Below, in pieces: positions 29,719 through 49,116 of a stretch of DNA of 64,000 nt. Position 1 is the stretch's first letter; every line of letters begins with the position of its first letter. Under the pieces are notes generated by a model. The model did not search any database. It was not told where the DNA came from and was given only the letters and a program-made list of their open reading frames with translations. The DNA is taken from contig NZ_SMFV01000002.1 in assembly GCF_004339575.1 (NCBI RefSeq), positions 248,001-312,000 on the forward strand, given 5' to 3'. A program made the position numbers and the translations under genes. The DNA is from Phorcysia thermohydrogeniphila. GTDB taxonomy: Bacteria; Aquificota; Aquificia; Desulfurobacteriales; Desulfurobacteriaceae.

Positions 29719-30570
29719 TTAACCTACTTCTTTTTCTATCACTTTGAGCTCCTCTTCTCCTCTTAAGATTCGCAAGAAAAGCTTAAAGTCCTCTGGAAAG
29801 GGAGCTTTTACGGAAACCGTCTTTTTCAGTATCGGGTGGGGGAACTCTATTTTTCGGGCGTGAAGGAGTATTCTCGGAGAAAAGAGGTGAATTTCCTTGT
29901 CCCACTTCCTCTTCCAGTAGTTAAACTCCCCAAGGACTGGGTGGTTGATTAGTGAAAGGTGTCTCCTTATCTGGTGCTTCCTTCCGGTCGGTATTTCAAC
30001 CTCAAGGAGGGAAGTTCCGTTAAACTCTTCCAAGACTCTGAAAAGCGTTTCTGACGGTTTCCCGTCAAGGGGAACGTTTACCTTACCGCTCTTTTTCTTA
30101 AAGTTTCCTGCAGCGAGGCACAAGTAGACTTTTTTGACTCTCTTCTTCTTAAAGAGCTCCTTAAAACTTTCAAAGACCTTTCTCTCCTTGGCCGCTATCA
30201 GAGCTCCACTTGTCTGCTTGTCAAGCCTGTGGACGACTGTGTAGTCTTTATTTTTCCTTCTCAGTATCTCTTCAACGTTTGGAACATCTTTGTTACTATT
30301 TATGAATGGTGGTTTGTTGATTATGAGAATATACTCATCTTCGTAGAGTTTTTCTATTCTTTTTTCATCAAAAAGAAGATGGTTAAAGGAAACGTAAATG
30401 GAACTCTTAGCCTTTATTTTTTTGCGGTAAAAGAGTTCTTTTAGCCCATTTACGGAACACAGCCCTTCGTTTATCAACTTTTTTGCCCTCTTCTTACTGC
30501 CTGTAACCGTAGAAACGCACTCTATAAGTGGTTGTTCCCCTCTACTTTTAAGCTTAAAAAACTCCACCAT
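29719..30570 (-). CDS. RluA-family pseudouridine synthase
   Basis: 283 residues. An N-terminal S4 RNA-binding domain (about 12-65, GSKKRAKKLINEGLCSVNG) is followed by the catalytic domain with VVHRLDKQTSGALIAAKE, whose aspartate is the catalytic residue, and the motif GRKHQIRRHLSLINHPVLG. It modifies uridines in rRNA or tRNA; whether it corresponds to RluC, RluD or another specificity cannot be read. It heads a run with purB. Confidence 0.92.
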   Translation of the reverse strand: MVEFFKLKSRGEQPLIECVSTVTGSKKRAKKLINEGLCSVNGLKELFYRKKIKAKSSIYVSFNHLLFDEKRIEKLYEDEYILIINKPPFINSNKDVPNVEEILRRKNKDYTVVHRLDKQTSGALIAAKERKVFESFKELFKKKRVKKVYLCLAAGNFKKKSGKVNVPLDGKPSETLFRVLEEFNGTSLLEVEIPTGRKHQIRRHLSLINHPVLGEFNYWKRKWDKEIHLFSPRILLHARKIEFPHPILKKTVSVKAPFPEDFKLFLRILRGEEELKVIEKEVG

Positions 30571-30635
30571 TTTTTCTCTCCTGCTGTATGAATTTTATCT
30601 CTCTATTTTATAGACAAATTCAATCCTTTGAATAG

Positions 30636-30663
30636 TTGACTTAGGGAAGTTCTATAACTAAGT
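30636..30663 (+). promoter_or_regulatory. Possible promoter/operator of the selenoperoxiredoxin gene
   Basis: TTGACT (30636-30641) is a good -35. The -10 at proper distance (TAAGTT) is poor. ACTTAG (30639-30644) and CTAAGT (30658-30663) are inverted arms 13 bases apart that would cover the promoter. This is a weak candidate for an oxidative-stress operator. It does not match the PerR or Fur boxes I know. Confidence 0.3.
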
Positions 30664-30695
30664 TTAAAACTGAAAATAACTTGCAGGAGGGAGAC

Positions 30696-31310
30696 ATGGC
30701 TCTCGTTGGACAAAAGGCTCCTGAGTTTGAACTCCAAGCCTATGACCCAAACACCGACAGCTACACGACCGTAAAGCTCTCTGATTACGTTCCTAACAAC
30801 GAAGGTAAGTTCCTCGTTGTATGCTTCTATCCGGCAGACTTTACCTTCGTCTGACCAACAGAGCTGGCTGCGGTCGCAGCCAAATATGAGGAGATTAAGG
30901 CCCGTGGGGCAGAGGTAATTGCCATTTCTACGGACACTGTTTTCAGCCACCAGATTTTCTGCAAGGTTGAGCCTCTTATGAAGGACGTTAAATTCCTCCT
31001 TGCAGCAGACCCAACAGGAGAGACTGCAAGGAAGTACGGCGTCTACATTGAGGAAGCAGGTCTTGCAAGGAGAGGAAGGTTCATTATCAACCCTGACGGC
31101 ATCATAGTAGCTGAAGAGGTTCTCAACCCACCAGTTGGTAGGAACGTCAACGAGCTCCTCAGACAGCTTGACGCTTGGAAGTACGTTTACGAGCATCCTG
31201 ACGAGGCCTGCCCAGCTAACTGGAGACCCGGTAAGAAGACTCTCAAGCCCGGTCCAAGTATTGCTGGAAAAGTAGGAGAGGTAATTACGATAGATGAGAT
31301 TCTCTCTTAA
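30696..31310 (+). CDS. Selenocysteine-containing 2-Cys peroxiredoxin (AhpC/Prx1 type)
   Basis: 204 residues when the in-frame TGA at 30852-30854 is read as selenocysteine (residue 53). The flanking sequence FYPADFTFV-U-PTELAAVA is the peroxidatic active site of 2-Cys peroxiredoxins, with U exactly where the peroxidatic cysteine normally sits. The resolving cysteine is kept in DEACPANWRPG near the C-terminus. No other stop or frameshift is present on either side, so this is recoding rather than decay. GGAGGGAG lies before the ATG at 30696. A SECIS-like hairpin starts 11 bases after the TGA. It reduces peroxides. Its expression needs SelA, encoded at 47.7 kb, plus SelB, SelC and SelD from elsewhere. 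Standard gene callers would truncate it to the C-terminal 110 residues. Confidence 0.93.
30855..30881 (+). promoter_or_regulatory. Bacterial SECIS-like element
   Basis: GGCTGC (30866-30871), loop GGTC, GCAGCC (30876-30881): a perfect 6-bp stem whose loop contains the GU dinucleotide that SelB recognises in the E. coli fdhF element (loop AGGUCU). The 11 bases between the TGA and the stem equal the spacing in fdhF. It lies in coding sequence directly after the recoded TGA. Confidence 0.82.
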
Positions 31311-32368
31311 TCCTTTCTTTGCCCCGCTCTGCGGGGCTTTTCTCCGTTAATCGCCAAGAAGAAAAACTCGGCCTTCCTTCCAGTTTCCCTGTTAAAACAT
31401 CTTATTCCGATTCTCGTTTTAAGCCTTTTTATCTTCAAGGGAAAGGGAGATTCAACGACCTTTCCCTTTTTCTTTGCCTTTACCCAGCCATTTTCGGAAG
31501 TGTATATAGAACAGTTTTTGTACTTTTCGGGCTCTTTTAGGAGGAAACGGACTGTGACAGGATTTTCCTCTAAAAGCCCTATTTCCGGATAGTGGCTAAC
31601 TACCGGAAGAGGTTCTATCTGGAGGTTCCTTACAAAATTTCTAAAGCCTGATAGTGAACCTACAACAGCCATTCTTGGAATGGGGTCTTCTTTACCGCTG
31701 TAGCTTCCCCTGTCCTGAGAAAGGAGGAGCTTGTATCCCTTCTTCTTGAAGAATTCAACGCTCAGCCTATCGTAGCTACCGTATGGGAAAGCGAAAAACT
31801 CAGGCTCACTGCCGAGGAGTTCTTTAAACCGCTTTCTTGAGAGCTCCTCCTCTTTTTCAAGAACTTTCAGGTATTCCTTAGGGGAGAGTTTTGCTCTTAA
31901 AACTGCTAAATCGGGGTGGCTGTACAGGTGATTTCCGAAGTCTGCGAGGCCGCTCTTTTGGAGCTCCTCTAACTCTTCTTTGGTTAAAAAGTCTGGATAC
32001 CTTCCGACCGCTTCCATGTAGAGAAAGACAGTGAAAGGGAATCTGTATTCCTTAAGTATCTCAAAGGCTTTCATCGTTGTTCTGTAACCGTCGTCAATTG
32101 TTATTACAACGGTCTTTGGAGGAATGGCTTTCCCTGATGAGACAATCTTGTAGAGTTCTCTCAAGTGTATTACGTTGTAGCCGTTTTTCTTCAGGTATTC
32201 CATCTGCTTCCTGAAGTCCTGTAAAGAGACAGACGTTGAAGGATACCTTTCGTCACCAAAGCGGTGGTAAATTAGGATAGTAGCGTAGTTATCTGTTGCA
32301 AGGAGTCTCTTCGGCAAGAACAAACTTAGAATCGTCAAAGCGAGTAAAACCGTTCTTTTCAATAACAT
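31307..32368 (-). CDS. Polysaccharide deacetylase family protein
   Basis: 353 residues. Signal peptide or anchor at 1-24, then a NodB-type deacetylase domain with ILIYHRFGD, the metal-binding TIDDGYRTTMKAF and HLYSHPDLA, and a FAFPYGSYD motif. The C-terminal 100 residues look like an added beta domain (EIGLLEENPVTVRFLL). It probably removes acetyl groups from peptidoglycan or an exopolysaccharide outside the inner membrane. The start overlaps the upstream glucosaminidase gene by 80 bases, unusually long, but the signal peptide falls in the overlap and supports it. The 3' end overlaps the selenoperoxiredoxin stop by 4 bases. Confidence 0.9.
   Translation of the reverse strand: MLLKRTVLLALTILSLFLPKRLLATDNYATILIYHRFGDERYPSTSVSLQDFRKQMEYLKKNGYNVIHLRELYKIVSSGKAIPPKTVVITIDDGYRTTMKAFEILKEYRFPFTVFLYMEAVGRYPDFLTKEELEELQKSGLADFGNHLYSHPDLAVLRAKLSPKEYLKVLEKEEELSRKRFKELLGSEPEFFAFPYGSYDRLSVEFFKKKGYKLLLSQDRGSYSGKEDPIPRMAVVGSLSGFRNFVRNLQIEPLPVVSHYPEIGLLEENPVTVRFLLKEPEKYKNCSIYTSENGWVKAKKKGKVVESPFPLKIKRLKTRIGIRCFNRETGRKAEFFFLAINGEKPRRAGQRKD
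31321..31343 (+). terminator. Rho-independent terminator of the peroxiredoxin gene
   Basis: GCCCCGC (31321-31327), loop TCT, GCGGGGC (31331-31337), then TTTTCT: a perfect 7-bp G/C stem 10 bases after the stop. It lies inside the 3' coding end of the convergent deacetylase gene, whose last residues (RAGQRKD) are read through the stem. Confidence 0.9.
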
Positions 32369-47722: not shown

Positions 47723-49116
47723 AAAAGGAACTTTTCAGGCAGATTCCAAAAGTTGACGTTTTCCTAAGCGATAAAGAACTTCTTGAAGTACTTGGAGATT
47801 CACCCCGTCCTCTCCTTGTTAAGGCGGTAAGAGATGTCCTTGAGGATTTAAGGGCTGGAATAGCTGCCGGTAAGGTTCAGGAGGTTGACGTAGACAGGAT
47901 AAGGGAAGAGATAAAGTCAGAGCTTAAAAAGCTCTTAAGACCTAAGCTCCATAGGGTAATAAACGCCACTGGCGTTGTTCTTCACACAAACCTTGGTAGA
48001 GCTCCAATATCAGAAAGAGTTGCAGAGCACCTTAAAGAGATAATAACCGGCTACTCAAACCTTGAGTACGACCTTGAGAAGGGGAAAAGAGGCCTCAGGT
48101 ATAGAAACCTTGAGTGGATACTCAAAGAACTTACAGGTGCAGAGGACGTCTGTGTCGTTAACAACAACGCCGGTGCTGTTTTGCTCGTTCTTTCTGCCCT
48201 TGCAAAGGGTAAAGAGGTTATCGTTTCAAGGGGTGAGCTGATAGAGATAGGAGGCTCTTTCAGGATTCCTGACGTTATGGCGCAAAGCGGTGCAATCCTT
48301 AAAGAGGTAGGAACGACGAACAAAACTCACCTGAGGGATTACGAGAGCGCCATAAACGAGAACACGGGACTTCTCCTTAAAGTTCACACGAGCAACTACA
48401 AAATTCTTGGCTTTACAGAGTCCGTTTCAACTGAGGAGCTTGTTGAGCTCGGTAGGCGCTACGGTATTCCTGTTTACGAGGACCTTGGAAGCGGTAGCTT
48501 TATAGATGTGAGGAAACTGGGACTTTCCTACGAGCCTACAGTTCAGGATGTCTTAAAGAGCGGAGTTGATGTCGTTTCCTTTAGCGGGGATAAACTCTTA
48601 GGCGGAGCTCAGGCGGGGATAATTCTCGGCAAGAAGGAGTTTATTGAAAAAATAAAGAAGCATCCCCTTAACAGAGCTCTCAGGATTGACAAAATGACTT
48701 TGGCCGTCCTTGAGGCCACTTTAGTTTACTACTTGGATGAAGAGAAGGCCCTTAAAGAGATACCGACTTGGAGGTTACTCTCACAGTCTCCAGCCGTCAT
48801 AAGGGAAAGGGCAGAGAAACTTGTGGAGCTTCTTAAACCTCGTTTGCTGGATAAAGCCCTGCTGGAAGTAGTTGAGGATGAATCTGAGGTGGGAGGAGGA
48901 GCTCTGCCCTTGCAAAGGCTACCTACTTACTGCGTCGCCGTAAAACCTCTCTCTCTTTCGGTCGGCGAACTTGACTGTAGACTAAGGAGCTGCGAGGTTC
49001 CAGTAATTGGTAGAATTAAAGATGAGAGGTATCTCCTTGACATGAGGACAGTATTTGATGAAGAGTTGGAGATACTCGCAAATAACCTTTTCAGGGTTCT
49101 TAAGGGAAGTTCTTAA
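47719..49116 (+). CDS. selA: L-seryl-tRNA(Sec) selenium transferase
   Basis: 465-residue PLP enzyme that converts Ser-tRNA(Sec) to Sec-tRNA(Sec) using selenophosphate. Family segments: RVINATGVVLHTNLGRAP, YSNLEYDLEKGKRG, GGSFRIPDVM, EDLGSGSF, and the PLP lysine in SFSGDKLLGGAQAG. The N-terminal domain for tRNA and decamer contacts (about 1-70, KVDVFLSDKELL) is present. TTG start at 47719 behind GAGGGGG, overlapping nuoN. Normally selA sits with selB or selD; here it is downstream of complex I. Its function is needed for the UGA-containing peroxiredoxin at 30.7 kb. Confidence 0.97.
   Translation: MKKELFRQIPKVDVFLSDKELLEVLGDSPRPLLVKAVRDVLEDLRAGIAAGKVQEVDVDRIREEIKSELKKLLRPKLHRVINATGVVLHTNLGRAPISERVAEHLKEIITGYSNLEYDLEKGKRGLRYRNLEWILKELTGAEDVCVVNNNAGAVLLVLSALAKGKEVIVSRGELIEIGGSFRIPDVMAQSGAILKEVGTTNKTHLRDYESAINENTGLLLKVHTSNYKILGFTESVSTEELVELGRRYGIPVYEDLGSGSFIDVRKLGLSYEPTVQDVLKSGVDVVSFSGDKLLGGAQAGIILGKKEFIEKIKKHPLNRALRIDKMTLAVLEATLVYYLDEEKALKEIPTWRLLSQSPAVIRERAEKLVELLKPRLLDKALLEVVEDESEVGGGALPLQRLPTYCVAVKPLSLSVGELDCRLRSCEVPVIGRIKDERYLLDMRTVFDEELEILANNLFRVLKGSS

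Follow-up and report, generated by a model that had tools for sequence, protein, structure and literature searches.

We conclude, with a probability of about 95%, that positions 30696–31310 of the window (the whole 64,000-nucleotide stretch of Phorcysia thermohydrogeniphila DNA analysed here) carry a functional selenoprotein gene. It would encode a peroxiredoxin (Prx) into which selenocysteine (Sec) is inserted at an in-frame UGA through a GGUC-loop hairpin, and its origin appears to lie within the Desulfurobacteriaceae, in a Cys peroxiredoxin of that family. By every sequence test made, this is a real selenoprotein gene.

The peroxiredoxin gene and its product

Translating 30696–31310 (plus strand) with TGA read as Sec gives a 2-Cys peroxiredoxin of the AhpC/Prx1 type, 204 residues long, with U at residue 53 (PADFTFV-U-PTEL) and zero other stops. 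The UGA codon for Sec53 (30852–30854, plus strand) was assigned to the peroxidatic position by translation and by alignment to homologues, whose redox Cys stands in its place. Pfam finds AhpC-TSA (2.2e-37) and, at the C-terminus, 1-cysPrx_C (2.5e-8); the preliminary description was right about the length and class of the protein and about its peroxidatic site. The protein has Cys at 43, 89 and 172. The active site PxxxTxxC/U is present as PADFTFVU and the VCPANW-like resolving motif as EACPANW, whose Cys172 (codon 31209–31211, plus strand) stands where the resolving Cys is usually found. Both the active-site motif and this putative resolving Cys are conserved in all Desulfurobacteriaceae Sec forms, in line with the earlier claim that the resolving residue was kept. 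Among solved structures, the nearest chains belong to AhpC and 2-Cys Prx proteins, and we infer from the sequence that the protein functions as a peroxidase.

For this gene, the standard listing of open reading frames in the window contains just a 110-aa frame starting at ATG (30978–31310), which bears out the expectation that standard callers lose the N-terminal part. The top NCBIfam match is PrxU, NF040737 (228.1 bits, E 1.1e-67, below its equivalog cut-off of 270), and the AhpC equivalog TIGR03137 reaches 185.9 bits, below its cut-off of 272. As both curated models score the gene below cut-off, automatic annotation likely misses or truncates it. A Shine-Dalgarno sequence, AGGAGG, read from the sequence, lies 5' of the ATG at 30696 (30684–30689, plus strand), and an intrinsic-terminator-like hairpin with a 7-bp all-GC stem, then TTTT, lies 3' of the stop (31321–31337, plus strand). 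An Rfam scan of 30000–32000 gave zero matches. We also observed a four-residue insert (VPNN or similar) at residues 32–35 (30789–30800), present in the family Sec forms and absent from the Cys forms.

Conservation of the UGA codon

TGA occupies codon 53 in 19 of the 22 Desulfurobacteriaceae genomes; the other three (G005, G018 and G020) have a Cys form only. Its recurrence at the same codon excludes chance or a sequencing error, and so disposes of the concern, raised in the preliminary description, that the true codon might be TGC or TGT. Each of the 18 full-length distinct Sec genes compared has one in-frame stop, always at codon 53. Third codon positions hold 70% of the differences among these genes upstream of the TGA and 81% downstream, a concentration that indicates purifying selection on both sides.

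The SECIS hairpin

The putative bSECIS hairpin (30865–30882, plus strand) has a 7-bp stem, a GGUC tetraloop at 30872–30875 (+18 to +21 after the UGA) and a folding energy of -12.8 kcal/mol. Published bSECIS criteria ask for a loop of 3–9 nt with G in its first two positions, a stem of 4–16 bp, a spacing of 16–37 nt and an MFE of at most -7.5 (PMC13188914); the Prx hairpin lies within all of these limits (loop 4, stem 7, GGUC, 17 nt between UGA and loop, -12.8 kcal/mol).

Across the 19 Sec genes, codons 58–61, the core of the hairpin, are the four lowest in entropy of 61 invariant fourfold-degenerate codons, a level that 100,000 random codon draws never reached. In the Cys paralogues, synonymous variation at these positions is ordinary. 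In 18 of the 19 genes the core includes GCG; eleven window genes use this codon for only 12% of their Ala residues. Two stem pairs covary (UA to CG in one; GU, GC, AU, CG or UA in the other). Pairing holds in 99.2% of cells; shuffles give 95.8%, and sliding the stem brings it to 73% or less. When sequences are shuffled synonymously one at a time, the z-scores are modest (mean -1.46; 3 of 19 below 0.05), since the Ala-Ala-Val-Ala-Ala sequence alone dictates most of the stem; codon-entropy ranking across the family replaced this weak single-sequence shuffling. The E. coli fdhF element has a bulged U in its stem, whereas the window Prx stem has none. Immediately 5' of the UGA, the Val52 codon (30849–30851) is GTC in 17 of 19 genes and, after the hairpin core, ranks with the most conserved synonymous sites; it perhaps provides an upstream context for UGA decoding.

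The hairpin also left a mark on the protein. Sec forms have Leu57 (with a G-ending codon in 15 of 19) and Ala61, where the family Cys forms have Ile57 and Asn61; judged from the aligned genes, these two substitutions supply the bases needed by the SECIS stem. Similar substitutions mark the Sec forms of Campylobacterota, where Ile has become Leu and Met has become Val; the Val provides the GU of the loop. We read these parallels as the SECIS having shaped the Prx protein convergently in Desulfurobacteriaceae and Campylobacterota.

Selenocysteine decoding and other selenoproteins

The preliminary description had tied its reading to selB, selC and selD, and all three are present in the window's genome (selB, 430 bits; selD, 380 bits; a tRNA-Sec with anticodon UCA). 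The window itself holds selA, encoding L-seryl-tRNA(Sec) selenium transferase (47734–49089, plus strand; TIGR00474, 642.6 bits, cut-off 267.9). Of the 22 family genomes, 20 yielded a selB and 21 a selD, and every selD has one in-frame TGA. The selD of this genome (G000:C3:171402-172328, L082) is itself a selenoprotein gene, with Sec in RASG-U-GAKLSP, and in the family members inspected the selD SECIS has its GGUC loop at +18, identical to the Prx spacing.

The decoding parts can be read from the sequence, and from them we infer Sec insertion itself. SelB with Sec-tRNA(UCA) would bind the GGUC-loop hairpin 3' of the UGA, directing Sec to the peroxidatic site. By analogy with family chemistry, Sec53 would then reduce peroxide to water via a selenenic acid, which would condense with Cys172 to a selenylsulfide, and a thioredoxin-type donor would re-reduce the Sec53-Cys172 bond.

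The selenoproteome of the genome was probed by family and covariance-model searches only. A Prx-SECIS covariance model, built mostly from Prx, gave convincing matches in this genome to Prx and SelD only, and at most two matches per genome across the family; with its weighting towards Prx, the model may miss other selenoproteins. Searches with the FdhA family found no Sec formate dehydrogenase, all matches being without an in-frame TGA; they include two FdhA-like molybdopterin oxidoreductases (L123, G000:C1:224394-226415; L124, C5:76515-78851). The genome thus seems to keep Sec decoding without a Sec formate dehydrogenase. According to a 2006 survey, which proposed co-evolution of Sec decoding with Sec formate dehydrogenase, organisms without that enzyme have a Sec SelD (PMC1794560); the Cys-type FdhA homologues and Sec SelD found here agree with this rule. 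In another family genome, G018 (L106), selB is present and selD contains an in-frame TGA, but there is no Sec Prx and the SECIS model has zero matches; the SECIS of its SelD may differ from the family type.

Origin of the Sec peroxiredoxin

In the protein tree, the Desulfurobacteriaceae Sec forms are united in one clade (100/100) that adjoins or nests among the Cys forms of the same family. With residues 53–68 left out, a single clade of all Sec forms is rejected (p-AU 2.9e-12), as is joining the family Sec forms to those of Campylobacterota only (2.7e-6). A phylum-wide search showed no Sec site outside Desulfurobacteriaceae, only Cys. Four TGA-flagged Aquificota matches outside the family (G033, G057, G058 and G075) were discarded: three show Cys and L165 starts past the site, and the in-frame TGA of G057 and G058 is merely the terminal stop. 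The Cys sequence L012 is sister to the Sec forms in the protein tree (99/95); it groups with other Cys forms in the DNA tree of first and second codon positions, the root of which was not used because the outgroup is badly aligned. The branching order of the duplication varies with the placement of L012. The direction of change, Cys to Sec, is drawn from outgroup parsimony and the protein tree. Given the trees and the lack of Sec sites elsewhere in the phylum, the simplest history, under either placement of L012, has Cys replaced by Sec on the branch leading to the family Sec clade. The Desulfurobacteriaceae Sec Prx therefore apparently had a separate origin, from the family's own Cys version.

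Synteny is consistent with such an origin. The Sec gene usually lies between an RluA-family pseudouridine synthase gene (29719–30570, minus strand, upstream in the window; TIGR00005, 7.9e-48, below cut-off) and a polysaccharide deacetylase gene (31307–32368, minus strand, downstream; partial PgaB-type matches). At this site, genus g7 has a lone Cys copy (G018, G020), a lone Sec copy (G021) or a tandem of Sec and Cys copies ~165 bp apart (G019), three states that point to duplication plus a Cys-to-Sec change. Overall, 11 of the 19 genomes with Sec Prx, the window's included, also hold a Cys paralogue 80–85% identical, which in the window's genome sits on a different contig; in the remaining 8 (G009-G015, G021), the Sec form is the only close AhpC-type gene. 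The one-for-one replacement of Cys claimed in the preliminary description is therefore too simple an account. Tandem duplication followed by loss or movement of copies fits the synteny, the order of events being our reconstruction: a duplication probably took place between the rluA-type and deacetylase genes, a Cys-to-Sec change and a new SECIS hairpin would have followed in one copy, and the Cys copy would later have moved, stayed or been lost, depending on the genome.

Alternative explanations

The TGA might be a true stop in a decayed peroxiredoxin, a pseudogene whose work is done by the TGA-free, 83–85% identical Cys paralogue in the same genome. Against so close a paralogue stand the single TGA shared by 19 genomes, with purifying selection on either side, the constraint that the hairpin is under in its own right, and the 8 genomes that have no other close AhpC-type gene; we regard decay as very improbable. 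We think just as little of UGA encoding another residue, such as Trp, by reassignment or readthrough and with no selenium involved. The open frame across the TGA allows this in principle, but no other frame in the window is a convincing gene with an internal TGA, the genome has the complete Sec machinery, homologues carry Cys rather than Trp at the site, and SelD repeats the layout of UGA and hairpin. The probability that faulty sequencing or assembly turned TGC or TGT into TGA is negligible, as independent assemblies of many genomes concur on the TGA and the codons near it depart from those of the Cys paralogue in a way specific to the SECIS.

A further alternative, which we consider unlikely, concerns only the source of the Sec form: it may be a horizontal acquisition, either of the entire gene or of a short segment bearing the SECIS, with Campylobacterota or deltaproteobacteria as donor. 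By windowed identity, the stretch UPTELxAVAAKYEEIK that begins at Sec53 is closer to the deltaproteobacterial forms L060 and L061 than to the family Cys forms, and the shared Tyr64 and Lys68 are not accounted for by stem constraint. However, the residues in common fall within the hairpin region, in which Leu57 and Ala61 are dictated by the stem, so that convergence is enough to explain much of the likeness. The rest of the gene goes with the family Cys forms, and one Sec clade is rejected once the segment is removed; transfer of the whole gene is thereby refuted. An origin from the family's own Cys peroxiredoxin remains our preferred reading.

Relation to known peroxiredoxins and significance

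Sec peroxiredoxins are an established family (PMC1794560, PMC1088965, PMC13188914). The preliminary description regarded them as known from few lineages, but they are not especially rare: a Sargasso Sea data set contained 43 Sec Prx genes, the second largest selenoprotein family there (PMC1088965), and several earlier Cys-to-Sec events are recognised in the peroxiredoxin family (PMC1794560). For Aquificae, the 2006 survey listed two selenoproteins only (PMC1794560). In the literature on Desulfurobacterium, Aquificota and hydrothermal Sec Prx, we found no specific report for Desulfurobacteriaceae or for the phylum. The Desulfurobacteriaceae enzyme is thus a new lineage of a known Sec Prx family, and its origin is documented unusually well. 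The presence of closely related Sec and Cys paralogues, in some cases adjacent, together with a clear SECIS history, makes the steps and benefit of the Cys-to-Sec change directly testable in thermophiles. The results also hint that an organism with no Sec formate dehydrogenase can retain Sec decoding, upheld by a peroxidase and SelD. More tentatively, and at somewhat less than even odds, Desulfurobacteriaceae may keep Sec decoding mainly for one peroxidase, and a single site may record the birth of a selenoenzyme together with a de novo SECIS. The former idea comes from finding this SECIS type only in Sec Prx and Sec SelD, with Cys in the formate dehydrogenase homologues; the latter comes from the one site at which genomes form a series of Cys-only, tandem and Sec-only states.

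Compared with typical 2-Cys Prx1 and AhpC (TIGR03137), the window protein shares the fold family, the PxxxTxxC/U motif and the C-terminal resolving Cys, and differs in having Sec in place of the peroxidatic Cys. It resembles PrxU (NF040737), the Sec peroxiredoxin of Eubacterium acidaminophilum (Sohling 2001, cited in PMC13188914), as an AhpC/TSA protein with Sec at the peroxidatic TxxU position, but scores below that model's cut-off (228 vs 270 bits) and groups with its own family's Cys forms. Those Cys forms (L002 and orthologues), although 80–85% identical and found in the same genomes or even at the same site, have Cys53, Ile57 and Asn61 and lack both the 32–35 insert and the hairpin. Campylobacterota Sec Prx (L049, L052-L054, L056, L057, L059) have the same UGA codon, hairpin place and GU distance, and 6 of 7 keep the resolving Cys; they are 50–53% identical, of separate origin, and their loop is of 7 nt, not GGUC. 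The deltaproteobacterial forms L060 and L061 share the UGA at the same codon and have AGUU at the loop position, as does L005, but are about 50% identical, lie on a separate branch and have Thr (EATPAGW) at the resolving position; relative to them, the Desulfurobacteriaceae enzyme retains the full 2-Cys layout. Thr in place of the resolving Cys (EVTPANW or EATPAGW) occurs in L059, L060 and L061, which suggests that Sec Prx of this type use a 1-Cys-like or other resolving scheme.
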